From: Okeania sp. SIO2C9
GTDB lineage: Bacteria > Cyanobacteriota > Cyanobacteriia > Cyanobacteriales > Microcoleaceae
Assembly (NCBI RefSeq): GCF_010672455.1
Contig: NZ_JAAHGO010000051.1
Coordinates: forward strand, 1-58,789
Direction: 5' to 3'
Length of the DNA stretch: 58,789 nucleotides
In this document: piece after piece, positions 987-37,022 of the stretch
Layout: each line of letters starts with the position of its first letter
Position numbering within the stretch: the stretch's first letter is position 1
Program-made: the position numbers and the translations under genes
Notes under the pieces: generated by a model
Databases searched by the model: none
Told to the model about the DNA's origin: nothing
The model's input: only the letters and a program-made list of their open reading frames with translations

Positions 987-2486
987 TTAAATACCAAAAA
1001 GAGTTTGAATCCGATTTCTAATCCTAGTAAAGGGAGTATTTTCTGAAGAACTACGATCAAGTAATCCTAATTCTTGTAATGCCTGTCGGCGTTCACAAAG
1101 CTTTCGAGAAATATCAGTAGCTAAACTAGGAGATTCTTCTAATAATCTTTGCAAATCATGTTGCTCTATTACAAATAAAATTGAATCTTCAAGAGTTTTT
1201 ACTGTAGCGGTACGAGGAGAACCCAATAACAAAGACATTTCACCAAAAAATTCTCCTTCGTGAAGAGTCGCAATATATTTACCAGTTTTTTCAGAAATTA
1301 CCTCAATAGCACCAGAAAGAATAATGTAAAAAGAATCTCCAACATCATTTTCTCTAAATATAATTTGCCCTTGAGGAAATAACTGTCTATAACCATATTC
1401 TATTAATTTTCTGAGTTTTAAATCCGTAAGACTTTCAAAATAAGTGACTCTTCTGAGTAGGTCTCGCAAAGTCCAATTATTGGGTGATTTTAATGCTGAT
1501 TTTTTAATTTTAGGTTGAATACTGCTCTGTTTTTGCTCAGAAGAAACACCATTTTGAGAAAAAACTTTACTTTCGCTAGTATTCGTAACAATACTACTGT
1601 TAAATAAGCTACTCAAATCTTGTGGATTTTTTAACCATAAATCTCTCTGAGGAAAGGGAATAACTATATCCTGCTGAGTCAATTCATGCTCAATTAAAAA
1701 ATTCAAAGAACTTTGAATTATATCGCTATCTTGAGGATGGTCAATCCAAACTAATAACTCAAAATCTAAAGAACTATCACCAAAACCTTTAAACCATACT
1801 TTAGGAGAAGGACGATTTAATACACTCGTTTCTGCCCGAGCAGCAGCTAATAATGCTTCCGTTACTAACAGTGGGTCACTACCATAAGCAACTCCAACTG
1901 GCATATGAAGACGACTTCTAGGATCTTTATAGCTCCAGTTAATAATATTATTTTCTACAAATTTTATATTAGGTACAATTACAAATATGCCGTCAAGAGT
2001 ACGCACAATTGTAGACCTAATAGAAATATTTTCTACTGTTCCTAATAAATTGTCTACTTCAATAAAATCTCCTACCTTAATAGGCTGTTCAAATAAAAGT
2101 GTTAAACCACTAATAAAGTTACTAGCAAGATTTTGTAATCCGAAGCCAAGTCCAATACCTAAAACCCCTGCTAAAACTGTAATGGTTCTCAGATCTATAC
2201 CAGCTCTTTGTAAAACAATTAAAATACCTAAAGTGGCAAGTATATAGATAATAACTGAAGCGATCGCTTCTCGATTACCTCGGTCTAAACCCATACGAGT
2301 TAGTAGTAATCTCTTGATTCCTTCTCCAATAGTACGAGCAATAATTAAGACTGCTACACCTAATAGAATTAGTCTGACAATAGCACTTATAGAAAGATGA
2401 TTATCTCCAATATAAAAAAGTGGAGTTGTTAATGCTCTAGATAAGTTTTGAAACCATTCTTTCCCTTGTAAAAAAATCCAATTCAT
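987..2486 (-). CDS. MscS-type mechanosensitive channel with C-terminal cyclic-nucleotide-binding domain
   Basis: A 499-residue inner-membrane channel. Hydrophobic segments lie near residues 33-50 and 75-92, and the pore-lining helix is around 100-130 (ITVLAGVLGIGLGFGLQNL), followed by the MscS beta domain (IKVGDFIEV...IRSTIVRTLDG...VPN) to about residue 250. After a polar linker, residues 349-465 form a cNMP-binding domain with the phosphate-binding cassette FGEMSLLLGSPRTATV at 414-429. MscS fused to such a domain is known as a cyclic-nucleotide-gated (bCNG) channel, so gating by cAMP or cGMP rather than tension alone is likely but inferred. A class III cyclase lies at 22569. The stop codon directly touches the right end of tnpB relic 1. 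No codirectional neighbour. Confidence 0.9.
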   Translation of the reverse strand: MNWIFLQGKEWFQNLSRALTTPLFYIGDNHLSISAIVRLILLGVAVLIIARTIGEGIKRLLLTRMGLDRGNREAIASVIIYILATLGILIVLQRAGIDLRTITVLAGVLGIGLGFGLQNLASNFISGLTLLFEQPIKVGDFIEVDNLLGTVENISIRSTIVRTLDGIFVIVPNIKFVENNIINWSYKDPRSRLHMPVGVAYGSDPLLVTEALLAAARAETSVLNRPSPKVWFKGFGDSSLDFELLVWIDHPQDSDIIQSSLNFLIEHELTQQDIVIPFPQRDLWLKNPQDLSSLFNSSIVTNTSESKVFSQNGVSSEQKQSSIQPKIKKSALKSPNNWTLRDLLRRVTYFESLTDLKLRKLIEYGYRQLFPQGQIIFRENDVGDSFYIILSGAIEVISEKTGKYIATLHEGEFFGEMSLLLGSPRTATVKTLEDSILFVIEQHDLQRLLEESPSLATDISRKLCERRQALQELGLLDRSSSENTPFTRIRNRIQTLFGI

Positions 2487-2524
2487 ACTTAGTTGTAAAA
2501 CTATTTTTACTTCCAGATTAAAAC

Positions 2525-2765
2525 TTACCGAATAATTAATAATTAATAATTAATAATTAAATAATTCTGGTTTAAAGCCTCCCCTTGGATAGGGGAAAAA
2601 GTGGTCGTTAGCGTAGCTTCCCGTAGGGTGGGATGGCGAGGTCTCGGAGCCATATCCAATCGACCAAGAGAAAAGAAATAATATCTCCTGATATTCAATC
2701 AAGGACGGTTTTAACCAGAGGTAATTATCAATTATCAATTATCCATTATCCATTATCAATTAATG
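2525..2765. repeat. Interspersed repeat family A, copy A1, with inner module
   Basis: The copy starts TTACCGAATAATTAATAATT, passes through a small hairpin (CCTCCCCTTGGATAGGGG) and ends in heptamer-like runs of ATTATCA/ATTATCC before TTAATGAAAG. It carries the inner module that starts near GTGGTCG, contains GCTTCCCGTAGGGTGGGAT and GGCGAGG, and ends ATATCCAATCGACC. Other copies lie at 11177, 40778, 41727, 42239, 47132, 50231 and 50811. The copy at 40778 lacks the module, so the module is separable. Confidence 0.8.
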
Positions 2766-3294
2766 AAAGCCTTTTGCACGACTAATTGTTACAGTAACAG
2801 CATTGAGTAAATAATAAGGTTTCATTTTTATCTTTGCTTATTGCTTTGATTTGAGCATTGTACTTAATTGTTATGCAAAGTACTGTATAGGGGTTGGCGA
2901 CTTTAATTAAATACATATGGGTTTTAGATAACAAGACACTGAGAACTTGACATTTCAATTGTTACTATTTCATCTAAAAATAAGTCAACGCTAAATTTTT
3001 AAATAAATTTAAATTTTTAATTATTATTTTAGTGGTTTGATGAATATTCAGCAAATAATAGTTATATATAGTAATTAGGAATCATATGTGAGAAACTGAT
3101 AGAGAAGTTATGGGAATTATAGATGGAAGAACTAGATGTTTTGATTGAATCTAATTGAAAACAAAAGGATTGACCAAAAGGAAAAATTTATCTTGTTTAT
3201 ACTTGTAGAGTGACAGCTCGTGGCACAGCCAGACAGAGGCTTTAAAGCTTAATTATTTAAGATTATAGTTATCTAGATAAAATTTAATTATTTA
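2766..3294. other. Gene-free AT-rich spacer
   Basis: No credible reading frame, RNA gene or recognised repeat was found between repeat A1 and the terminator-like hairpin. It probably holds the 5' region of the divergently placed mscS gene only at its far end; no promoter could be defined with confidence. Confidence 0.4.
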
Positions 3295-3313
3295 CCAGGG
3301 AAAAATTCCCTGG
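3295..3313 (-). terminator. Terminator-like hairpin after the VWA gene
   Basis: A perfect 8-bp stem CCAGGGAA/TTCCCTGG with a 3-base loop lies 24 bases past the stop of the minus-strand VWA gene. On that strand it is followed by a T-rich stretch, which fits an intrinsic terminator, although the T run is interrupted by A residues. Confidence 0.55.
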
Positions 3314-3336
3314 CTGAACTAATCAAAAAGTATCCT

Positions 3337-4575
3337 TTACTTTAAAATTGTTTTGGAGACAATTCTAGTTTTTTTCCGGTCTGATTCAGAAAGTTCCTCT
3401 CCATCTTGTAAACGAGTCGCACTGGTTTGTAAAACAGTTGCTGCTCCTGTATCTCCCATTTGTAATGCTGTTTTAGCAGCAGTTTGTAACATTGTAGCAG
3501 CACCCGCTCGATCGCCTTGTTGCAATTTTGTTTCAGCTATTTGAGTTTGCCTATATTTTGCTAAAGCTAAAATATGATTTTGTACTTCCGAATTAATTTG
3601 AGGCTGATATTTTTGCGTAACATTAGCTTCAACTAATATAGGTTCAGAAAGTAAATCTTCTTTACTTTGAGCAGGGTCATCATAACGAACTTGTAATTGG
3701 ACGATCGCCTGTTTTCCTTCAGGTAATTGCCCAATATAAAGATTAACTAGAACTACTCTTTCTACATCTTTCATTAAATCTCCCAGTCTGACCATAAAGC
3801 GGTCGTTCTCTTTTTGTACGGGCAATTCAATAGTATCTGGTGCAACTTGTGCAATAGGTTTAAGTTCTGCTAATCTAACTCTAGGCATCAGGGATAATCG
3901 CAAATAAGAATTAGTAAGTCCCACAGATTGAATCCGGTTAAACAGTCTACCAAATTCCTCTATTGCCTGTTCTGGACGTTGAATATAAGCAAGAGTCCCC
4001 CCACCTGCATCAGCTATTTTTTCCAGAACATCTTGATTCCAATCATCACCAAACCCTAGAGAATTTAAAGTCATACTATAGTCAGTAGCCAACTTTGCTA
4101 ATTTAAGACAACGGTCATTATCCCCATGCTCATTTTCCCCATCAGTTAATATAAAAGCCTGGGAAATAGCATCCTTTTGGCCTTTATCTAACTCTTCTAT
4201 TCCTAACTTCAAACCCTCATCAATAGCTGTACCACCAGAGGATCTTAATCTGTTAATCTCGCGCTTAATACTACCAGGGTCATTAATAACTTGATTAGAA
4301 ACAATCACCTTAGCTCTATGGTCAAAAGCCACAACTGAAAGGCGATCGCCCTCCTTCAATTTATCTACAAGTTGTCCTGCTGCTTGTTTTACAGTTTCCA
4401 GTGGCCTTCCTTCCATAGAACCACTATGGTCTAAAATCAAACATAGGTTTAGTGGTACAGTTCTTTCTAGCTCATCAGCTAGAGCTGAAATAGATATGGC
4501 CAGTTGACGTTGAGATGAAGATTGAGTGGCATCAATATTGGTATCGTTAAGAACCGAATGTAGATTAACTTTCAT
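3337..4575 (-). CDS. VWA-domain protein (metal-ion-dependent adhesion site)
   Basis: A 412-residue protein without a clear signal peptide or membrane helix, probably cytoplasmic. The von Willebrand factor A domain occupies about residues 40-220. All MIDAS elements are visible: DHSGS at 49-53 (D49, S51, S53), T116 in SSGGTAID, and D145 in FILTDGENE. The region to about 330 is beta-rich, as in bacterial relatives of Ca-activated chloride channel subunits and YfbK-like proteins. Residues 330-412 are helical and alanine/glutamine-rich (AETKLQQGDRAGAATMLQ), reminiscent of TPR or coiled coil. The family mediates Mg2+-dependent protein binding; the partner is unknown. The gene stands alone with a terminator-like hairpin behind it. 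Confidence 0.85.
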   Translation of the reverse strand: MKVNLHSVLNDTNIDATQSSSQRQLAISISALADELERTVPLNLCLILDHSGSMEGRPLETVKQAAGQLVDKLKEGDRLSVVAFDHRAKVIVSNQVINDPGSIKREINRLRSSGGTAIDEGLKLGIEELDKGQKDAISQAFILTDGENEHGDNDRCLKLAKLATDYSMTLNSLGFGDDWNQDVLEKIADAGGGTLAYIQRPEQAIEEFGRLFNRIQSVGLTNSYLRLSLMPRVRLAELKPIAQVAPDTIELPVQKENDRFMVRLGDLMKDVERVVLVNLYIGQLPEGKQAIVQLQVRYDDPAQSKEDLLSEPILVEANVTQKYQPQINSEVQNHILALAKYRQTQIAETKLQQGDRAGAATMLQTAAKTALQMGDTGAATVLQTSATRLQDGEELSESDRKKTRIVSKTILK

Positions 4576-4934
4576 AGATATACTAGAAATTTTACTACTA
4601 CTTATTTAAGGATATATACACAAATATAGGGAAAAATTTCGATATGAATACATAAAAATTAGGTTTCTTAATAAAGTTAATGACAGTCGAGTCTAGATAT
4701 AGACCAAGAAACCCAATCTATGCTAAGTATATTACCTAAAAAACGACAGAAGGCTCCCGGTATAATCTTTAATTTACCGGGAGATGAATGGTGACAACGA
4801 TAATTGTGGTTTCCGTTGGTCATGCTACCCCAAGGATGCCATAATTATCTACAAATCTTAACAGTTTATCCAGCAGATATTTTAGGTAAACTTAGTTATA
4901 ATAATCTTATTTTACAAGGAGTTAATCACAACGA
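4576..4934. other. Spacer with perfect hairpin, probably the left part of a tnpB element
   Basis: A 9-bp perfect inverted repeat CTCCCGGTA/TACCGGGAG spans 4754-4783 and is not followed by a T run. It may be a subterminal hairpin of the tnpB relic that starts at 4935, or a leftover terminator. I could not find the TTGAC motif that marks the left boundary of the intact relative, so the left boundary of this relic is unresolved. Confidence 0.4.
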
Positions 4935-5239
4935 GTGCTAGTAATTGAAGCCAAATTAAAAGGCAGTCAAAATCAGTACAAAGTTCTAGATGAAATGATT
5001 CTCGCTGGTCAGTTCATCAGAAACAGTTGTTTGCGCTATTGGATGGATAATAAAAACGTCAAGCGTAACGACTTACAAAAACTTTGTGCTGTACTAGCAA
5101 AGGATAAAAATTTTCCTTGGGCTAAGAAACTCAACTCTCAAGCCAGACAAGCGTCAGCCGATAGAACATGGCAATCAATACAACGATTTTATCGTAATTG
5201 TAGACAGAACTTACCAGGAAAGAAGGGTTATCCAAAATT

Positions 5240-11800: not shown

Positions 11801-12751
11801 ATGCCAAACTTAATTATCTGGATCGTAATATTTATAGTCAGCTTATTCGTTCTGATTAAAGCTTCTGACTTCTTTACAGATGCAGCAGAAAAAATAGGTA
11901 TATCTTTAGGAATTTCTCCTTTTTTAGTAGGGGTAACAATAGTATCAGTAGGAACCTCTTTACCAGAGTTAGTATCATCTATTATCGCTGTATACCAAAA
12001 CTCCTCTGAAATTGTTTTTGGTAATGTCGTTGGTTCCAATATTGCTAATATTTTCTTGATTATTGGTACTGCATCATTGATAAGTAGTCCTTTAAGGATA
12101 CAATATGAACTAATTAATGTAGATTTACCACTATTTGTTGGTTCAGCTTTTTTATTAGGTTTAACAGTTTTAGATAATAATTTTTCTAAAAATGAAGCTA
12201 TTATTTGTATCTTGGGATATGTTATCTATGTTTTATACACTATTAGTAGTGGTAAGGAAGAACAAGAGTTAGAAAAAGATGGAAATAGAAACTCAAAGAA
12301 AACTTTACCAACCAAACAAATAGCCATTGTGATTGCTAGTTCATTATTTGTCTTTTTGGGGGCAACCTATACAATTGAATCAGTTACTAAAATTTCTGAA
12401 ATACTCAATATTGCTAAGGAATTAATTGCTTTAAGTGCAGTTGCCCTTGGTACATCATTGCCAGAGTTAATAGTTACAATTTCTGCTGCTAAAAAAGGGA
12501 ACCCTGAAATTGCCGTAGGAAATGTCTTAGGTTCTAATATTTTTAACTCATTAGTAGTAATGGGAATACCAAGATTAACAGGCAATTTAGTAATTCCTGA
12601 AGATGTTATTGGTGGTGGATTATTGGTTTTATTAGCAGGAACAATTATGTTCTTTTTTGTCACTCAAGATAAACAAGTAACTCGTTGGGAAGGATTAATA
12701 TTTTTCCTATTCTACGGGTGGTTTATTGGCAATATATTTGGGTTAGTGTGA
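11801..12751 (+). CDS. Ca2+/Na+ antiporter of the CaCA family (YrbG-like)
   Basis: A 316-residue membrane protein of two homologous halves, each with the alpha-repeat signature: VGVTIVSVGTSLPELVSSI followed by FGNVVGSNIANIF, and ALGTSLPELIVTI followed by VGNVLGSNIFNSL. About ten hydrophobic segments are visible and a charged loop (SSGKEEQELEKDGNRNSKK) separates the halves. The family exchanges Ca2+ for Na+ or H+ across the inner membrane. I chose ATG 11801 because the protein then starts directly with the first membrane helix (MPNLIIWIVIFIVSLFVL); an upstream TTG at 11759 would add 14 polar residues. Single gene between repeat-rich spacers. Confidence 0.9.
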   Translation: MPNLIIWIVIFIVSLFVLIKASDFFTDAAEKIGISLGISPFLVGVTIVSVGTSLPELVSSIIAVYQNSSEIVFGNVVGSNIANIFLIIGTASLISSPLRIQYELINVDLPLFVGSAFLLGLTVLDNNFSKNEAIICILGYVIYVLYTISSGKEEQELEKDGNRNSKKTLPTKQIAIVIASSLFVFLGATYTIESVTKISEILNIAKELIALSAVALGTSLPELIVTISAAKKGNPEIAVGNVLGSNIFNSLVVMGIPRLTGNLVIPEDVIGGGLLVLLAGTIMFFFVTQDKQVTRWEGLIFFLFYGWFIGNIFGLV

Positions 12752-12805
12752 CATCCTCCGAACTCCAATACTTGAATTTGTAATTCCTGGAACAATAGGG
12801 AGTAA

Positions 12806-12980
12806 TACCAATTTGAGAAATCTTTGTTACTATTTCTTGAGTAGGGGAATGAGGGAAAAGTAAACACAAGATTAATTAGGACTAACTAGGGTGCTAATTA
12901 TCAAAAAAGTTATTTTCTGGTATTAATCACTTAATAATTGAAGTTTCACCTAAGTATAGTATTCTTTTTTCAAATTGGTA
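12806..12980. mobile_element. Miniature element with TACCAATTTGA ends (family H), copy H1
   Basis: A 175-bp element with inverted ends TACCAATTTGAGAAA / TTTTTCAAATTGGTA (14 of 15 match) and a 3-bp TAA duplication (12803-12805, 12981-12983). The family recurs at 26323-26515 and 39085-39465. Confidence 0.7.
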
Positions 12981-28659: not shown

Positions 28660-28800
28660 TTGACACTCCCCGCTAATCGCGAGACGGGGATTCTTGGCTC
28701 AACGACTCGCCATCACCTAGCAGGATTTCTCCAACTAAGCCAGAGGGCGTGTCTCCCCAAGCGTAAGTTCCGGTATGCCCTACCGTACATAGCGCTTTTT
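28660..28800 (-). ncRNA. Putative omegaRNA 3' end of the intact TnpB element
   Basis: Reads AATCCCCGTCTCGCGATT, AGCGGGGAGTGTCAA, forming a CCCCG/CGGGG stem, and ends at 28660. The guide would be the flank on the minus strand from 28659 (TTGTGGAATGACCTGAAA). It overlaps the 3' end of tnpB. The 5' end of the RNA cannot be set by eye. Confidence 0.6.
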
Positions 28801-29890
28801 GTAGGATGTTTCTTGCAGCATTCACATCTCTATCTGCCTCATACCCACAATGAGGGCAAACATGAGTTCTCACAGATAGAGACTTTTTGACAACTTCCCC
28901 ACAGTTAGAACAGTTCTGACTTGTATAGTTAGGTGGTACCGCTACTGTAGCCTTCCCATACTTAAAACCAAAATACTCTAACCAACCACGGAAAGTTGAC
29001 CAGGCAACATCACTGATTGATTTAGCTAGTCTTCGATTTCTTACCATGCCTTTTACATTTAAGTCTTCATAAGCCACCAAGTCGTTAGAATGGATTACGC
29101 AATATGCTACTCTCTTAGCGTATTCTTTACGTTGCCTACTTATTCTCAAATGCTTCCGTGCATATCTATTTCTAGCTTTATGGTAGTTGTTTGACTGCGG
29201 TTTAGCTCCTTTCTTGTACTTCTTAGATTTTTGACGATTTGCTCTATTTAACTGCTTTTCAGACTTTCTATAAAACTGAGGGTTTTCTATAGTCTTGCCA
29301 TTACTATCAGCCAAGAAATATTTAATTCCTACATCTAAACCTACTGCTTTTCCTGTTGGTTGAGACTCAATTTTTAAATCTATTTGAATAGCAAATTGAG
29401 CATAATAACCATCAGCACGTTTAACTAACCTTACTCGTTTTATTTGGTTGAGTTGATAGTAGTTTAAATCGTAAGTACCTTTCAATTTTAAAGTACCTAT
29501 ATTTTTCTTGTCTGAAAAAGTAATTGCTTTTCTGTTTGATGACAATTTCCAACCAGAAGTTTTATATTCTACAGAACGACAATGTTTTTTAAATTTAGGA
29601 TAACCCTTTTTACCTTTGACTTTTTTCTTGCAGTTATCGTAAAATCTAGATATAGAAGACCAAGCTCTTTCCGCAGCCGATTGTCGAGCCATTGAATTGA
29701 GTTCGTTAGCAAATTTAAACTCTTTAGCCAATACTTTACAATGTTTATTGAGGTCATATTTGCTCACCTTTTTGTTGTCCATCCAATATCTCAAGCATTT
29801 ATTTTGAATAAACTGAGATGTCCTAATAGCCTCATCTATTGCTTTATATTGCTGTGGTTTAGCTTTGACTTTAAACTCGTAAATTATCAT
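28673..29890 (-). CDS. tnpB: TnpB RNA-guided endonuclease, intact
   Basis: A 405-residue TnpB, the ancestor group of Cas12. The N-terminal region (FKVKAKPQQYKAIDEAIRTS, CLRYWMDNKKV) holds the wedge and recognition parts. RuvC I has the catalytic Asp of VGLDVGIKYFLAD; RuvC II the Glu of LVAYEDLNVKGM; the zinc ribbon is CSNCGEVV...CPHCG; RuvC III the Asp of ADRDVNAARNIL. All three acidic residues and four cysteines are present. It should cut DNA matching its omegaRNA guide next to TTGAC, as shown for relatives, which helps the element survive excision. The last 60 codons overlap the presumed omegaRNA. Confidence 0.95.
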   Translation of the reverse strand: MIIYEFKVKAKPQQYKAIDEAIRTSQFIQNKCLRYWMDNKKVSKYDLNKHCKVLAKEFKFANELNSMARQSAAERAWSSISRFYDNCKKKVKGKKGYPKFKKHCRSVEYKTSGWKLSSNRKAITFSDKKNIGTLKLKGTYDLNYYQLNQIKRVRLVKRADGYYAQFAIQIDLKIESQPTGKAVGLDVGIKYFLADSNGKTIENPQFYRKSEKQLNRANRQKSKKYKKGAKPQSNNYHKARNRYARKHLRISRQRKEYAKRVAYCVIHSNDLVAYEDLNVKGMVRNRRLAKSISDVAWSTFRGWLEYFGFKYGKATVAVPPNYTSQNCSNCGEVVKKSLSVRTHVCPHCGYEADRDVNAARNILQKALCTVGHTGTYAWGDTPSGLVGEILLGDGESLSQESPSRD

Positions 29891-30136: not shown

Positions 30137-31504
30137 ATGAATGATGCTGTGAAAAATCAAGCCCTTGTAGATGCTTTGGTAAATCTTCCGGAGGACGCAA
30201 GTGAACCGGAAGTTAGTAATATTTTTGCATCTAAATTATTTAATTTTTTAGGTTTTGAAGAAAATGAAAGAGTACCTGAATTTTCTACAGGAACTGGTAC
30301 TCAAGCGGTCGATCATGCTCTACGTCAGAATAGAGAAAATGACATATTTAATCAAACCAGAACTAATCCAGATGTGCTTGTAGAATTGAAAGCTCGGAAT
30401 ATTAATTTAGCTGCTGGTTCAAAAGGATATAAAGAGATTTATAAACAAATAAAACGGTATTTATTAGGAGAAAATTGTAGATCGGCGAAGTGGGGAATAA
30501 TTAGCAATGCTAATCACATCCAATTATTTAGAAAGCATGGAAAAGTTATCCATCCGGTGACAGTTTGTCTGGAAATTAATTCAGAAAATATTATCAATAT
30601 CGCTACATTAATTAAAGAAAAAATTGATAAACCACGAAAAGTATTAACAGTAGCAGTTTATAACGATAAAGGCGGGGTAGGAAAAACTACAACTATAGTT
30701 AATACCGCAGCCACCCTATCACTCCCACCGTATCACAAAAAAGTTTTGGTTGTTGATTTTGATCCGAATCAAAGAGACTTGACAAATTCTCTACCAATTG
30801 AACCTAGTACACCTACTTTTTTTGATTGCTTAATAGATAAAAATATTAATGTTAGAGATGTAATTAAACCCTACAACCAGTTAATTAACTTTAGAGGAGG
30901 CAAACAAAAATTTGGTTTTCATGTAATTCCTGTACATAAAGATACTGATTGGAATGATATTGGACAAAAAATTACTTTTGACCGATTAAGCAAAAAATTA
31001 GAGCCACTAAAAAATTACTACGACTATATATTTATTGATTCTCCTACTAATTGGCAAATTTTTAGTCAAAGTGCTGTTTATGCAGCAGATGTAGTTTTAA
31101 TACCAGTAAAACATCTATGTTTAGCCTCCCTAGAAAATGCAGCTATAACTATCAAGGAATATATACCAAAAGTTCAACAAGTAAGAAGAAAAAATCAAGA
31201 TTTCGGACCTATGGCTTTGCCGATTTTTTTCAATGGGGGAAACATGAGCGAAGCTCAAAAGAGACGTGTTCAAATCCATATTAATCAATTGATTAAATAT
31301 GCTCAAAATAATCGAAATAATAAGTTTAATCTTACACCATATTTTTATCCTCGCTATACAACAGGAAAAAATATGGAAATATTTGAGTTGCGTCATTATG
31401 CACCTATAGCAAGTTCTGCTTTTGATGGTGTACCTGCTGTTTATAAAAATAAGATAGCTCGTGAATATTATAAGAGTTTGGTTAAGGAATATTTTCTGCA
31501 ATGA
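30137..31504 (+). CDS. ParA/MinD-type ATPase with N-terminal PD-(D/E)XK nuclease-like domain
   Basis: A 455-residue fusion. Residues 20-145 look like the HsdR-N type I restriction nuclease fold: EPEVSNIFASKLFNFLGF, AVDHAL at 57-62, then NPDVLVELKAR, giving D79 and E83-x-K85 of a PD-(D/E)XK site, followed by YKQIKRYLLGENCRSAKWGI. Residues 168-450 are a ParA ATPase with deviant Walker A DKGGVGKTTT (signature Lys178, P-loop Lys183), the A' motif VLVVDFDPNQ and Walker B YIFIDSPTNW. ParA enzymes bind DNA as ATP dimers and are stimulated by ParB-like partners. The stop overlaps an ATG (ATGA) of a ParB-like gene. A nuclease-ParA fusion in a chromosome is unusual; activity is inferred from motifs. 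Confidence 0.85.
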   Translation: MNDAVKNQALVDALVNLPEDASEPEVSNIFASKLFNFLGFEENERVPEFSTGTGTQAVDHALRQNRENDIFNQTRTNPDVLVELKARNINLAAGSKGYKEIYKQIKRYLLGENCRSAKWGIISNANHIQLFRKHGKVIHPVTVCLEINSENIINIATLIKEKIDKPRKVLTVAVYNDKGGVGKTTTIVNTAATLSLPPYHKKVLVVDFDPNQRDLTNSLPIEPSTPTFFDCLIDKNINVRDVIKPYNQLINFRGGKQKFGFHVIPVHKDTDWNDIGQKITFDRLSKKLEPLKNYYDYIFIDSPTNWQIFSQSAVYAADVVLIPVKHLCLASLENAAITIKEYIPKVQQVRRKNQDFGPMALPIFFNGGNMSEAQKRRVQIHINQLIKYAQNNRNNKFNLTPYFYPRYTTGKNMEIFELRHYAPIASSAFDGVPAVYKNKIAREYYKSLVKEYFLQ

Positions 31505-31675
31505 GCAATTTAAGTAAAATTGGTAAGTTCATATATCTATAATATGGATGAAATTGAACTCGGAGATGGAAAAAATTATCCTGAATTTATAATTTCATCG
31601 ACAGCAAAAGTTCTGAATGAAACTAATGAAAAAACTGGGTATCTATGATTGTTAAAGTTGGAGAAGAGTATTATA
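31501..31675 (+). pseudogene. Truncated tandem copy of the ParB-like gene's 5' end
   Basis: This starts with the ATG that overlaps the stop of the ParA gene and reads MSNLSKIGKFIYL, stop, then in another frame MDEIELGDGKNYPEFIISS and TAKVLNE, and breaks off with a copy of TTAAAGTTGGAGAAG. The intact gene at 31676 repeats the same 5' region. So the original start overlapped ParA, and a partial duplication of about 175 bp separated the intact copy from it. Base changes between copies show the duplication is not brand new. Confidence 0.8.
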
Positions 31676-32470
31676 ATGAGCAATTTAAGTAAAATTGGTA
31701 AGTTGATACATTTATATATGGATGAAATTGAACTGGGAGGTGAAACAAATACTCCAGAATTTATAATTACATCAACAGCAAAAGTTCTGAATGAAACTGG
31801 TGGGAGAAACTGGATACCTATCATTGTTAAAGAAGTGGGAGAAGATCGATATCAAGTAATTGGTAATTCTTTTATTTTTGCCGTAGCTGAAGCTGCTGGT
31901 TTAGAAAAAGTTTGGTGTATTATTGCTGACAAAAGTGAAGAAACTGAAAAAATTAGCAAAATTTTGTCTGGAGAAAAAATACCACAAATAAATCTTTCCA
32001 CCGCCACGAGAGACGAAATTAAAACAGCACTTCAATACTTAATTGAAAAACCAGACAGTCAACTTAAAGGAGTCAAACTAGCAGTAGCCACAAATCGTAT
32101 TGATGAAGCACCACGTCAATATTGGAAAGATTTTCAACCCATCACAAAATTAAAGTGTGGAATTACAACTTCTAAAGTAAATGCTTTGAAAGAAGTTTTT
32201 TATCTGAGTCCTCAACCAATACCCGAACTAGAAAAAGTAAATCTTTCCACTGCTACAAAAGACGAAATTCAAGCAGCACTTAAATATTTAATAGAAAAGC
32301 CAAATAGTCAACTTAAACAAGTTGAATTAACAAAAGCCACAGAACGTATTGCTGAAGCTCCACGCCAAAATTGGAAAAGCTTAGAACCAATTACAAAATT
32401 AAAGTGTGGAATTGGAAAAGCCAAGATTAATGCTTTAAAAGAAATATTTTATCTAAGGAACGTAAATTAA
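31676..32470 (+). CDS. ParB-like N-terminal domain protein with duplicated C-terminal helical repeat
   Basis: A 264-residue protein that probably works with the preceding ParA-type gene. Residues 25-88 resemble the ParB/Srx (ParBc) fold: IPIIVKEVGEDRYQVIGNSF and FAVAEAAGLEKVWCIIAD, matching the usual pattern of an R/N-x-P-I-x-V strand, YxVI turn and AA-x-AG helix. The GHRR catalytic-type motif is replaced by GNSF. Two near-identical repeats of about 72 residues follow (106-177 and 189-260), each with NLSTAT-x-DEI, YLIEKP, EAPRQ and ITKLKCGI; they recall DNA-binding helix-hairpin-helix elements. ATG 31676 was chosen because it matches the start of the duplicated copy and has GAG upstream. Confidence 0.75.
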   Translation: MSNLSKIGKLIHLYMDEIELGGETNTPEFIITSTAKVLNETGGRNWIPIIVKEVGEDRYQVIGNSFIFAVAEAAGLEKVWCIIADKSEETEKISKILSGEKIPQINLSTATRDEIKTALQYLIEKPDSQLKGVKLAVATNRIDEAPRQYWKDFQPITKLKCGITTSKVNALKEVFYLSPQPIPELEKVNLSTATKDEIQAALKYLIEKPNSQLKQVELTKATERIAEAPRQNWKSLEPITKLKCGIGKAKINALKEIFYLRNVN

Positions 32471-35474: not shown

Positions 35475-35720
35475 GGTCAGCACCCCGCTCTAAAGAGACG
35501 GGGCTTCGGGCCTCGTTAATTTAGGTAGCTGACCCGCCTAAGTCTTAACTGACTACGTTGCATTTAAGTGCCAAAGTTCTCACCTTGGGATGCTCCACCA
35601 GTCCTGAGCTTCTGAAACCAGATAATTAAAAGTTTACGAGGGGTAAAGCGGTGTTATTTGGATGTGCCGGAATGCAACATTGGCCAGGTGGCCATTACCC
35701 TAGCAATAGGAGATTTTTCA
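35475..35720 (+). ncRNA. Putative omegaRNA upstream of iscB
   Basis: IscB guide RNAs are encoded just before the gene with the guide at the 5' end. Here GGTCAGC (35475-35481) pairs with GCTGACC (35528-35534), enclosing a CCCCG-CTCT-AAAG-AGA-CGGGG hairpin (35483-35503) and GCTTCGGGCC. Further structured strings follow (TGCCAAAGTTCTCACCTTGG, GGCCAGGTGGCC). The left flank that would act as guide is a piece of the family A/F repeat end (GCGAGGCTTTAAACC, AATTTTTCGGT). Ends are estimates. Confidence 0.6.
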
Positions 35721-37022
35721 ATGAGTAAAAATTCAGTTTTTGTGCTGGATACAAATAGAAAACCCTGTAATCCAGTTCATCCTGCTGTTGCCAGAAAGTT
35801 ATTAACTCAACGAAAGGCAGCAGTATTTCGCAGGTATCCTTTGACAATTATTTTGAAGGAGGAATCAAAAAATCAACCGAAGGAATTAAGAATTAAGATT
35901 GACCCCGGTGCTAAGATTACTGGTTTAGCTTTAGTATCAGATACCAACATTGTCTGGTGTGCTGAGTTGGAACATCGAGGGTTTCAAATCAAGGACAATT
36001 TAAGCGACAGACGAGCCAGAAGAAGGTCAAGACGCAACCGTAAAACTCGTTATCGTCAGCCCAGATTTCTGAATAGAAAACGACGGGATGGTTGGTTGCC
36101 TCCATCGTTAATGTCGAGGGTTTTTAACATTGAATCTTGGGTGAAAAAGCTGTGTCGATTAGCTCCTATTTCTACTATCAGTATGGAGTTAGTTCGATTT
36201 GATACACAGAAAATGGTTAATCCAGAAATTAATGGGATAGAGTACCAAAAAGGCGAACTATTTGGTTATGAGATAAGAGAATATCTGCTTGAGAAGTTTA
36301 ATCGCACTTGTGTTTATTGCAATACAAAAGAAGGGCCTTTTAACTTGGACCATTTCTATCCTAAATCTAAGGGAGGTAGCGATAGAGTTTCCAATTTAGT
36401 ATTGAGTTGCGTTAAGTGCAATCAGAAAAAGGATAACCAATTGCCTGTTGATTTCTTAAGGGATCAACCCAAGCTTTTAGCATTAATTGAAAAGCAGAGA
36501 AAACAACCTTTAGCTGATACTGCGGCTGTTAATGCAACTCGCTGGAAATTAAAGGAAACCCTCGAAGCTATGGGTTTACCTGTTGAAGTTGGTTCTGGAG
36601 GATTAACTAAGTTTAATCGAAAACGTCTAGGTATTAGTAAAAGTCACTGGACTGACGCTGCCTGCGTTGGCACTTCTACTCCTGATAGTTTGAACATCAA
36701 AGGATACCAACCCTTGCTAATTAAAGCTATGGGACGTGGTTCTCGTCAAATGGTTAACTCTGATAAGTACGGTTTTCCCATCGTAGCACCTAAGCTGAGA
36801 CAGAAATCATTCTTTGGCTTTCAGACTGGAGATATTGTCAAAGCTGTTGTCAAGAAAGGTAAAAAGATTGGTACTTATGTTGGTCGAGTTGCTGTGAGAA
36901 AAACTGGCAGTTTTAATATCAAAACTAAAACTGAACTTATCCAGGGAATTAGTCATAAATATTGCCAACATACCCATAAATCTGATGGATTTAGTTATGG
37001 ATTTGGGGAAGTGGTTCAATAA
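35721..37022 (+). CDS. iscB: IscB, RNA-guided nuclease of ISC elements (Cas9 ancestor family)
   Basis: 433 residues from ATG 35721, preceded by TAGGAGA; an upstream GTG at 35658 is less likely because it lies within the RNA. The PLMP-type start (VFVLDTNRKPCNPVHP, ARKLL) leads to RuvC I with D61 (IKIDPGAKITGLAL), an arginine-rich bridge helix (RRARRRSRRNRKTRYR), RuvC II with E156 (SMELVRFD), an HNH insert with CVYC...LDHFYPKSKGG...CVKC (C197, C200, H211, C230, C233) and RuvC III with H309 and D312 (KSHWTDAACVG). All catalytic residues are present, so the nuclease should be active. No transposase is linked; the element lies between the decarboxylase and cbiT. Confidence 0.93.
   Translation: MSKNSVFVLDTNRKPCNPVHPAVARKLLTQRKAAVFRRYPLTIILKEESKNQPKELRIKIDPGAKITGLALVSDTNIVWCAELEHRGFQIKDNLSDRRARRRSRRNRKTRYRQPRFLNRKRRDGWLPPSLMSRVFNIESWVKKLCRLAPISTISMELVRFDTQKMVNPEINGIEYQKGELFGYEIREYLLEKFNRTCVYCNTKEGPFNLDHFYPKSKGGSDRVSNLVLSCVKCNQKKDNQLPVDFLRDQPKLLALIEKQRKQPLADTAAVNATRWKLKETLEAMGLPVEVGSGGLTKFNRKRLGISKSHWTDAACVGTSTPDSLNIKGYQPLLIKAMGRGSRQMVNSDKYGFPIVAPKLRQKSFFGFQTGDIVKAVVKKGKKIGTYVGRVAVRKTGSFNIKTKTELIQGISHKYCQHTHKSDGFSYGFGEVVQ

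Follow-up and report, generated by a model that had tools for sequence, protein, structure and literature searches.

A predicted nuclease fused to ParA and its ParB-like partner

The stretch of DNA analysed here (the window) is 58,789 nucleotides of a 66.9 kb contig (NZ_JAAHGO010000051.1) of Okeania sp. SIO2C9, a filamentous marine cyanobacterium with a genome totalling 10.9 Mb in the assembly. An earlier note, made from the letters alone, had singled out two adjoining genes on its forward strand as a candidate system: a PD-(D/E)XK nuclease domain joined to a ParA ATPase, and a ParB-like gene behind it. The pairing holds across relatives: in 61 of 63 loci the partner comes directly after the fusion on the same strand (none was found in L047 and L102), and the predicted nuclease site is conserved. 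From sequences and structural models, we read the pair as a nuclease-armed ParA/ParB-like module conserved as a two-gene unit; because it is conserved in tens of genomes, chance is excluded. The closest relatives among named records are from Okeania. Coordinates are those of the whole window, and residue numbers of the fusion are those of the 455-amino-acid (aa) window protein (Table 1).

A single open frame carries both halves of the fusion, as first proposed, and Pfam, hhalign and the AlphaFold2 model agree on an HsdR-N-like domain followed by a full ParA. The model has a predicted local distance difference test score (pLDDT) of 93.4 and a predicted template modelling score of 0.93, and its secondary structure, read by eye, gives the N-terminal domain the alpha-beta-beta-beta-alpha-beta order of the PD-(D/E)XK core (helix 23-37; strands 45-50, 57-62 and 80-84; helix 96-109; strand 119-123). 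Taken singly, these domains match HSDR_N_2 under the Pfam cut-off of 25 bits, with 20.3 bits for the window N-terminus and 19.3-24.6 bits in seven single proteins, and no Pfam match at E 0.1 was obtained in the plasmid cousins L042 and L044. Of 25 HSDR_N_2 loci collected, 22 were entered for a profile comparison; ten of these, all minus-strand matches, had no open frame at the position assumed and dropped out, which left 12. When a family profile of 84 rows was compared by hhalign with these 12 HSDR_N_2 members, the match reached a probability of 98.7% (E 2e-16) with the D...E-x-K...Q positions in line, and the control comparisons gave 0.3% for the ParA domain and 0.2% for the partner. Foldseek with the fusion model returned ParA/MinD-type chains in all of its best 50 rows, with no match of the N-terminal domain's own among them, and a sequence search of the PDB with the N-terminal domain profile gave three matches at chance level only.

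The predicted active site of D59, E83-x-K85 and Q104 looks intact, and we predict that the domain cleaves DNA. Of the 63 aligned close relatives, 61 retain E23, 59 retain D59, all 63 have E83, 61 have K85 and 62 have Q104. The 22 aligned distant cousins, whose nuclease domains are only 17-26% identical to that of the window, all keep D59, E83 and K85, with Q104 in just 1 of the 22. The ExK part of the active site named in the earlier note therefore stands, and its D79 does not: that column holds Y in 30 rows and F in 12, with D in 9, and the conserved aspartate is D59. The nuclease fold in the model and the acidic and lysine residues in homologues, on which the note had let its proposal depend, are both present, save in two degenerate copies (L093 and L102) that are taken up below. 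Other exceptions among the close rows are L099 (E23Q) and L103, with an incomplete N-terminus and K178Q; L043, first flagged as an exception, has the aspartate in the close-plus-cousin alignment.

The ParA half is equally well kept, with K178 in 61, K183 in 62, D209 in 61 and D301 in 62 of 62 core rows, and each of the four in 22/22 cousins. The window family has the deviant Walker A with its signature lysine and the Walker B aspartate that mark ParA/Soj proteins. Ratios of nonsynonymous to synonymous substitution (dN/dS) over both domains ran from 0.1 to 0.9 in 12 pairs, apart from a single 1.3 that comes from a short distance, and were 0.39-0.71 between the window and two near relatives. As a separate observation, L087 and L089 have nearly identical nuclease domains (dN 0.02) and diverged ParA domains (dN 0.18), a contrast that points to recombination between the nuclease and ParA domains.

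The partner gene was correctly recognised as ParB-like. Foldseek with its model (pLDDT 90.6) finds ParB, Noc, PadC and sulfiredoxin with a best E of 5e-7, and the model has a ParB_N (ParB/sulfiredoxin) fold; the Pfam score of 18.6 bits is under the ParB_N cut-off of 26.3, which three of the six class B partners put through Pfam exceed (class B is described below). The GERRxRA CTP-binding box is absent, with N64 in 63/63, F or L at position 66 in 61, and Y, F or L at position 68 in 63, and no helix-turn-helix (HTH) family appeared in Pfam scans of the window partner and of the relatives' partners scanned. Of the proposed extent, the end at 32470 is right, and the start of the 273-aa open reading frame (ORF) originally listed, 31649, is too early, as the start in relatives lines up with 31676. 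We take 31676 as the working start, since the gene's 5' end has a broken duplicate ahead of it, at 31501-31675; as the note had seen, the start once overlapped the ParA stop, at ATGA 31501-31504. Counting duplicates, 67 rows were compared for their fusion and partner frames, and the frames overlap in 54. Duplicate remnants of the partner's 5' end also occur in the Okeania relatives L038 and L088, a 624-base gap in L087, and only a shortened partner in L085.

The two 72-residue repeats reported in the partner do form a two-copy repeat, and "near-identical" is too strong for them at 52/73 identical residues. Among 60 partners typed by pattern, the C-terminus past the 73-residue segment is Rho_N/SAP-like in 34 and repeats the segment once more in 18; the other 8 fit neither pattern, and five of these end repeat-like by eye. 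Rho_N is above the Pfam cut-off in the partners of L092 and L109. Some partners end in helix-hairpin-helix (HhH) or Rho_N/SAP-type modules, and the C-terminal module varies between clades; some of these exchangeable ends are of DNA-binding types. An assignment of the 73-residue repeat itself as HhH was unsupported by hhalign.

Table 1. Features of the nuclease-ParA/ParB-like locus; coordinates of both genes include the stop codon
Feature	Position	Strand	Evidence
Fusion gene, PD-(D/E)XK domain + ParA ATPase, 455 aa	30137..31504	+	ORF, Pfam, AlphaFold2 model
HsdR-N-like PD-(D/E)XK domain, residues 1-165	30137..30631	+	HSDR_N_2 E 6e-4; hhalign
D59 codon, predicted metal-binding aspartate	30311..30313	+	Conservation; aligned to D of HSDR_N_2 members
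E83-x-K85, predicted catalytic ExK	30383..30391	+	Conservation in close rows and cousins
Q104, which we take to be the Q of the HsdR-type QxxxY motif	30446..30448	+	Conservation in close relatives
ParA ATPase domain, residues 170-455	30644..31501	+	Pfam AAA_31 E 1.6e-24; best Foldseek matches Soj/ParA
Deviant Walker A DKGGVGKTT	30665..30691	+	K178, K183 conservation
Broken partial duplicate of partner 5' end, with original ATGA overlap start	31501..31675	+	Alignment to gene start at 31676
ParB-like partner gene, 264 aa	31676..32470	+	ORF; model pLDDT 90.6; Foldseek
ParB_N-like domain, residues 1-100, without GERRxRA box	31676..31975	+	ParB_N E 0.002, 18.6 bits
Partner repeat 1, residues 105-177	31988..32206	+	Matching segment after ParB-like domain in aligned relatives
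Partner repeat 2, residues 188-260; Rho_N/SAP-like domain at this place in many relatives	32237..32455	+	

Distant cousins and a second class

The same arrangement recurs at greater distance. Among the 23 loci of distant cousins the fusion lies in one frame in 22 (not L108), and a partner recognised by profile follows in 21 (not L108 or L112). A further set of 25 loci, class B, of which four are also among the 23 cousin loci, retains the nuclease motif in 24, with EAK in 25/25 and RLDF in 24/25. All 25 have a downstream ORF within 250 bases, which is ParB-like from its start in 24; in L322 the ORF begins past the domain. At 1e-60, 52 of 292 genomes have a class B match, and in 35 of these the match spans almost all of the profile. 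In L330 a partner accompanies a ParA with an unrelated N-terminal extension, and in L340 a full nuclease-ParA fusion (2330-3706) adjoins a second, nuclease-free ParA at 4065-4943 (-).

The genome of the window holds both classes. Its contig C245 has a class B fusion at L273:12910-14427 (-), with a ParB_N-like ORF overlapping the fusion's end; this partner is read in two ORFs (12557-12910 and 11987-12511). A 375-aa protein with ParB_N, a coiled coil and Rho_N lies some 6.6 kb away from that pair, at L273:4246-5373 (-), and no ParA adjoins it among ORFs of at least 100 aa. A canonical ParA/ParB pair is present on contig C56, beside the two nuclease-ParA classes.

Distribution and genomic carriage

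At least 107 of 388 genomes of the order match the fusion at E 1e-80 or better, and fragments, some of them lying at the end of a contig, turn up in others. A profile search of the phylum matched 40 of 292 genomes at 1e-40, a few through distant cousins. Presence across cyanobacteria is patchy, and stops or split copies occur in at least six genomes (G241, G377, G374, G233, G065 and G081). Outside cyanobacteria we covered collections of plasmids, phages and viruses and, in a single scan for close relatives, genome contigs, and a wider spread is possible. A predicted viral contig of 58 kb from IMG/VR (L125) holds a complete class A pair between regulators; the genes around it include a repressor, an anti-repressor and an Erf-like gene.

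In near-complete genomes most copies are on the chromosome. Near-full-length copies were found in 23 genomes of at most 10 contigs (G184 was left out for its shorter match), and in 22 of these the copy is on a contig of at least 2.8 Mb, including G040 with a stop near the start and G309 without a partner. The remaining genome, Nostoc sp. UHCC 0870, has copies on two plasmids. On a gene tree of 63 sequences, built by a quick method, taxonomic family has to change 23 times, compared with a minimum of 13 and a shuffled mean of 41.3, a pattern that we read as partly vertical and partly exchanged or anciently duplicated.

Neighbourhood of the pair

Apart from the partner, no neighbour is common to more than 12 loci. 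The earlier note saw no plasmid genes nearby, and none turned up among the neighbours scanned, but two proteins flank the pair. On one side is a TnpB-type protein (OrfB_IS605, Cas12f1-like TNB domain) at 28673-29890 (-), and on the other an RRXRR + HNH protein at 35658-37022 (+), which we take to be IscB-like.

Repeated 10-mers and palindromes exceed Markov shuffles, the only comparison, in 59 upstream and 61 downstream regions, with scattered hits, and the same regions gave no consistent parS-like site. An origin-linked role in chromosome segregation was tried as a candidate and rejected: the distance to dnaN does not differ from uniform over 22 chromosomes, related genomes included (Kolmogorov-Smirnov, KS, p 0.13). 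Clades have their own positions, with all nine f7 chromosomes within 16% of dnaN and the seven of f33, f19 and f17 at 30-48%.

Possible roles

Most likely, we tentatively suggest, the pair has an accessory role in conflict with, or maintenance against, particular replicons rather than in housekeeping segregation. ParA and its partner, we infer, position the nuclease on DNA or gate it there. The partner would bind a DNA feature and communicate with ParA, ATP-bound ParA dimers would sit on DNA, and the ParA cycle would place two nuclease domains on that DNA and gate cutting; the targets would be plasmid or phage DNA, or DNA without the right partner complex. An accessory or conflict role is supported because copies are chromosomal, patchy and sometimes broken. 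We also count in its favour the conserved D59, E83 and K85, the intact ParA motifs, the tight linkage and the partner's exchangeable C-terminal modules, together with the tree pattern, the dN/dS values and the co-occurrence of two classes and a canonical ParAB in one genome.

Several observations weigh against this role. The defence-island location that the earlier note had proposed to test is not borne out, since around 20 complete-chromosome copies 139 neighbours hit 29 PADLOC families and 133 control proteins hit 51 (E 1e-12). The same locus is retained in five genomes compared within one genus, old duplications could also give the tree pattern, and one carrier plasmid of only 12.6 kb, with a replication gene, fits partition. 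L093 has lost two of the predicted active-site residues (D59G and K85T) and retains its partner. Finally, five relatives of class B (L326, L327, L328, L329 and L339) have a nuclease-free ParA with an adjoining partner. These were found among 15 loci chosen for partial, weak or double class B matches; their ParA starts at the ParA domain, and there is no nuclease domain in ORFs of at least 50 aa in the stretch. Because these five keep the partner, the nuclease is an optional arm on a ParA/ParB-like core, and cutting is not needed by every version. Separately, strong single PADLOC matches do occur among the neighbours; they include a type II methyltransferase and a type II restriction enzyme, each with a single member.

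A plain partition cassette is the chief alternative, possible but somewhat doubtful. Here the pair would move or retain DNA as ParABS does, with the nuclease fold added for autoregulation, DNA processing or dimer handling, and chromosomal copies would be integrated plasmids or have a local positioning role. Nuclease-free sister pairs and plasmid carriage do support a segregation-like core, and the ParA-ParB logic with its overlapping frames fits as well. In the plasmid collection the seven records with a partner are the same seven that head the fusion match list (two being equal-length plasmids of two Leptolyngbya boryana strains), and on plasmid ABRG53g the pair is the sole partition-like pair seen among 18 annotated genes. 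However, two carrier plasmids also have ParM and a third has a separate ParA/ParB, so the pair is not their only segregation system. The chromosomal copies keep no common distance to dnaN, the window genome has a canonical ParAB, no consistent parS-like repeat was established in the flanking regions scanned, and a partition cassette would not need such conservation of a nuclease site.

The accessory reading has a more specific form that we consider rather unlikely, in which a segregation machine has been turned into a restriction system: a diverged ParB-like protein would tell the ParA-nuclease on which replicon it sits, and the ParA-nuclease would cut DNA where the proper partition complex is missing and thereby keep out rival plasmids or phages. 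Such an immunity or incompatibility mechanism was not found in the literature and defence library searched.

Quite improbable, in our view, is a machine that processes or repairs DNA in polyploid cells, in which ParA would bring a structure-selective nuclease (for a junction, dimer or end) to partner-bound DNA. The PD-(D/E)XK superfamily includes junction resolvases, the HhH and Rho_N/SAP-type ends of some partners would suit such a task, and so would a locus kept in place within a genus, but patchy presence is odd for a repair function, and the partner is the sole neighbour that the loci share. Least probable of all is a PD-(D/E)XK domain that does not cut and serves DNA binding or dimer formation, its residues kept for metal or fold: the natural double losses in L093 and L102 (D59H and K85R in the latter) lie in otherwise open ParA frames, but no partner could be detected at L102 either, and elsewhere the D-ExK triad hardly varies, even between distant classes.

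What ParA/ParB pairs are known to do is move DNA, and HsdR-N domains are known to cut it. With a recurrent pair that joins the two and has natural nuclease-free versions, one can test directly if partition machines were recruited for recognising and destroying foreign DNA, or if polyploid cyanobacteria use a nuclease in partition.

Comparison with known systems

No description of a nuclease-ParA/ParB-like pair appeared in the titles and abstracts of the literature searched, where subscription papers and bioRxiv are thinly represented; passages of PMC10853773, PMC5512222, PMC7159879, PMC5379612 and PMC1913061 were also compared. In the passages compared, GmrSD type IV restriction (ParB-like + HNH) and ParB-HNH fusions likewise combine a ParB-type fold with a nuclease (PMC12839542, PMC12704722), whereas our locus has no HNH in the pair and carries its PD-(D/E)XK nuclease on ParA. 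ParB-CTPase fold proteins outside ParABS share a diverged ParB fold with lineage-specific partner domains, but here that fold is paired with a nuclease-ParA, a pair that the passages of PMC12704722 do not mention.

Among PADLOC models, the candidate PDC-M28B matches the ParA region (E 1e-5, and also in 5 cousins). The match is to the ParA core only and leaves the nuclease domain and partner unmatched, and no PADLOC match over a whole protein was obtained for the window pair or, bar weak stray matches, for the cousins. The N-terminal nuclease of type I restriction HsdR (HSDR_N_2, PF13588) aligns at the D...E-x-K...Q positions, but in our fusion it is joined to ParA and not to a helicase, and neither HsdM nor HsdS is among the six flanking proteins scanned. 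Type Ia plasmid ParA proteins such as P1 ParA have an N-terminal extension, a winged helix, ahead of ParA; our fusion also places an extra domain there, with a nuclease fold instead of the winged helix. With ParABS of the Soj/Spo0J type the pair shares the ParA fold and motifs and a ParB-fold partner just downstream, often with an overlapping start. It differs in the PD-(D/E)XK domain on ParA, in having no established parS, and in a partner without the GERRxRA box, with no HTH found, that carries repeat, Rho_N/SAP or HhH modules.

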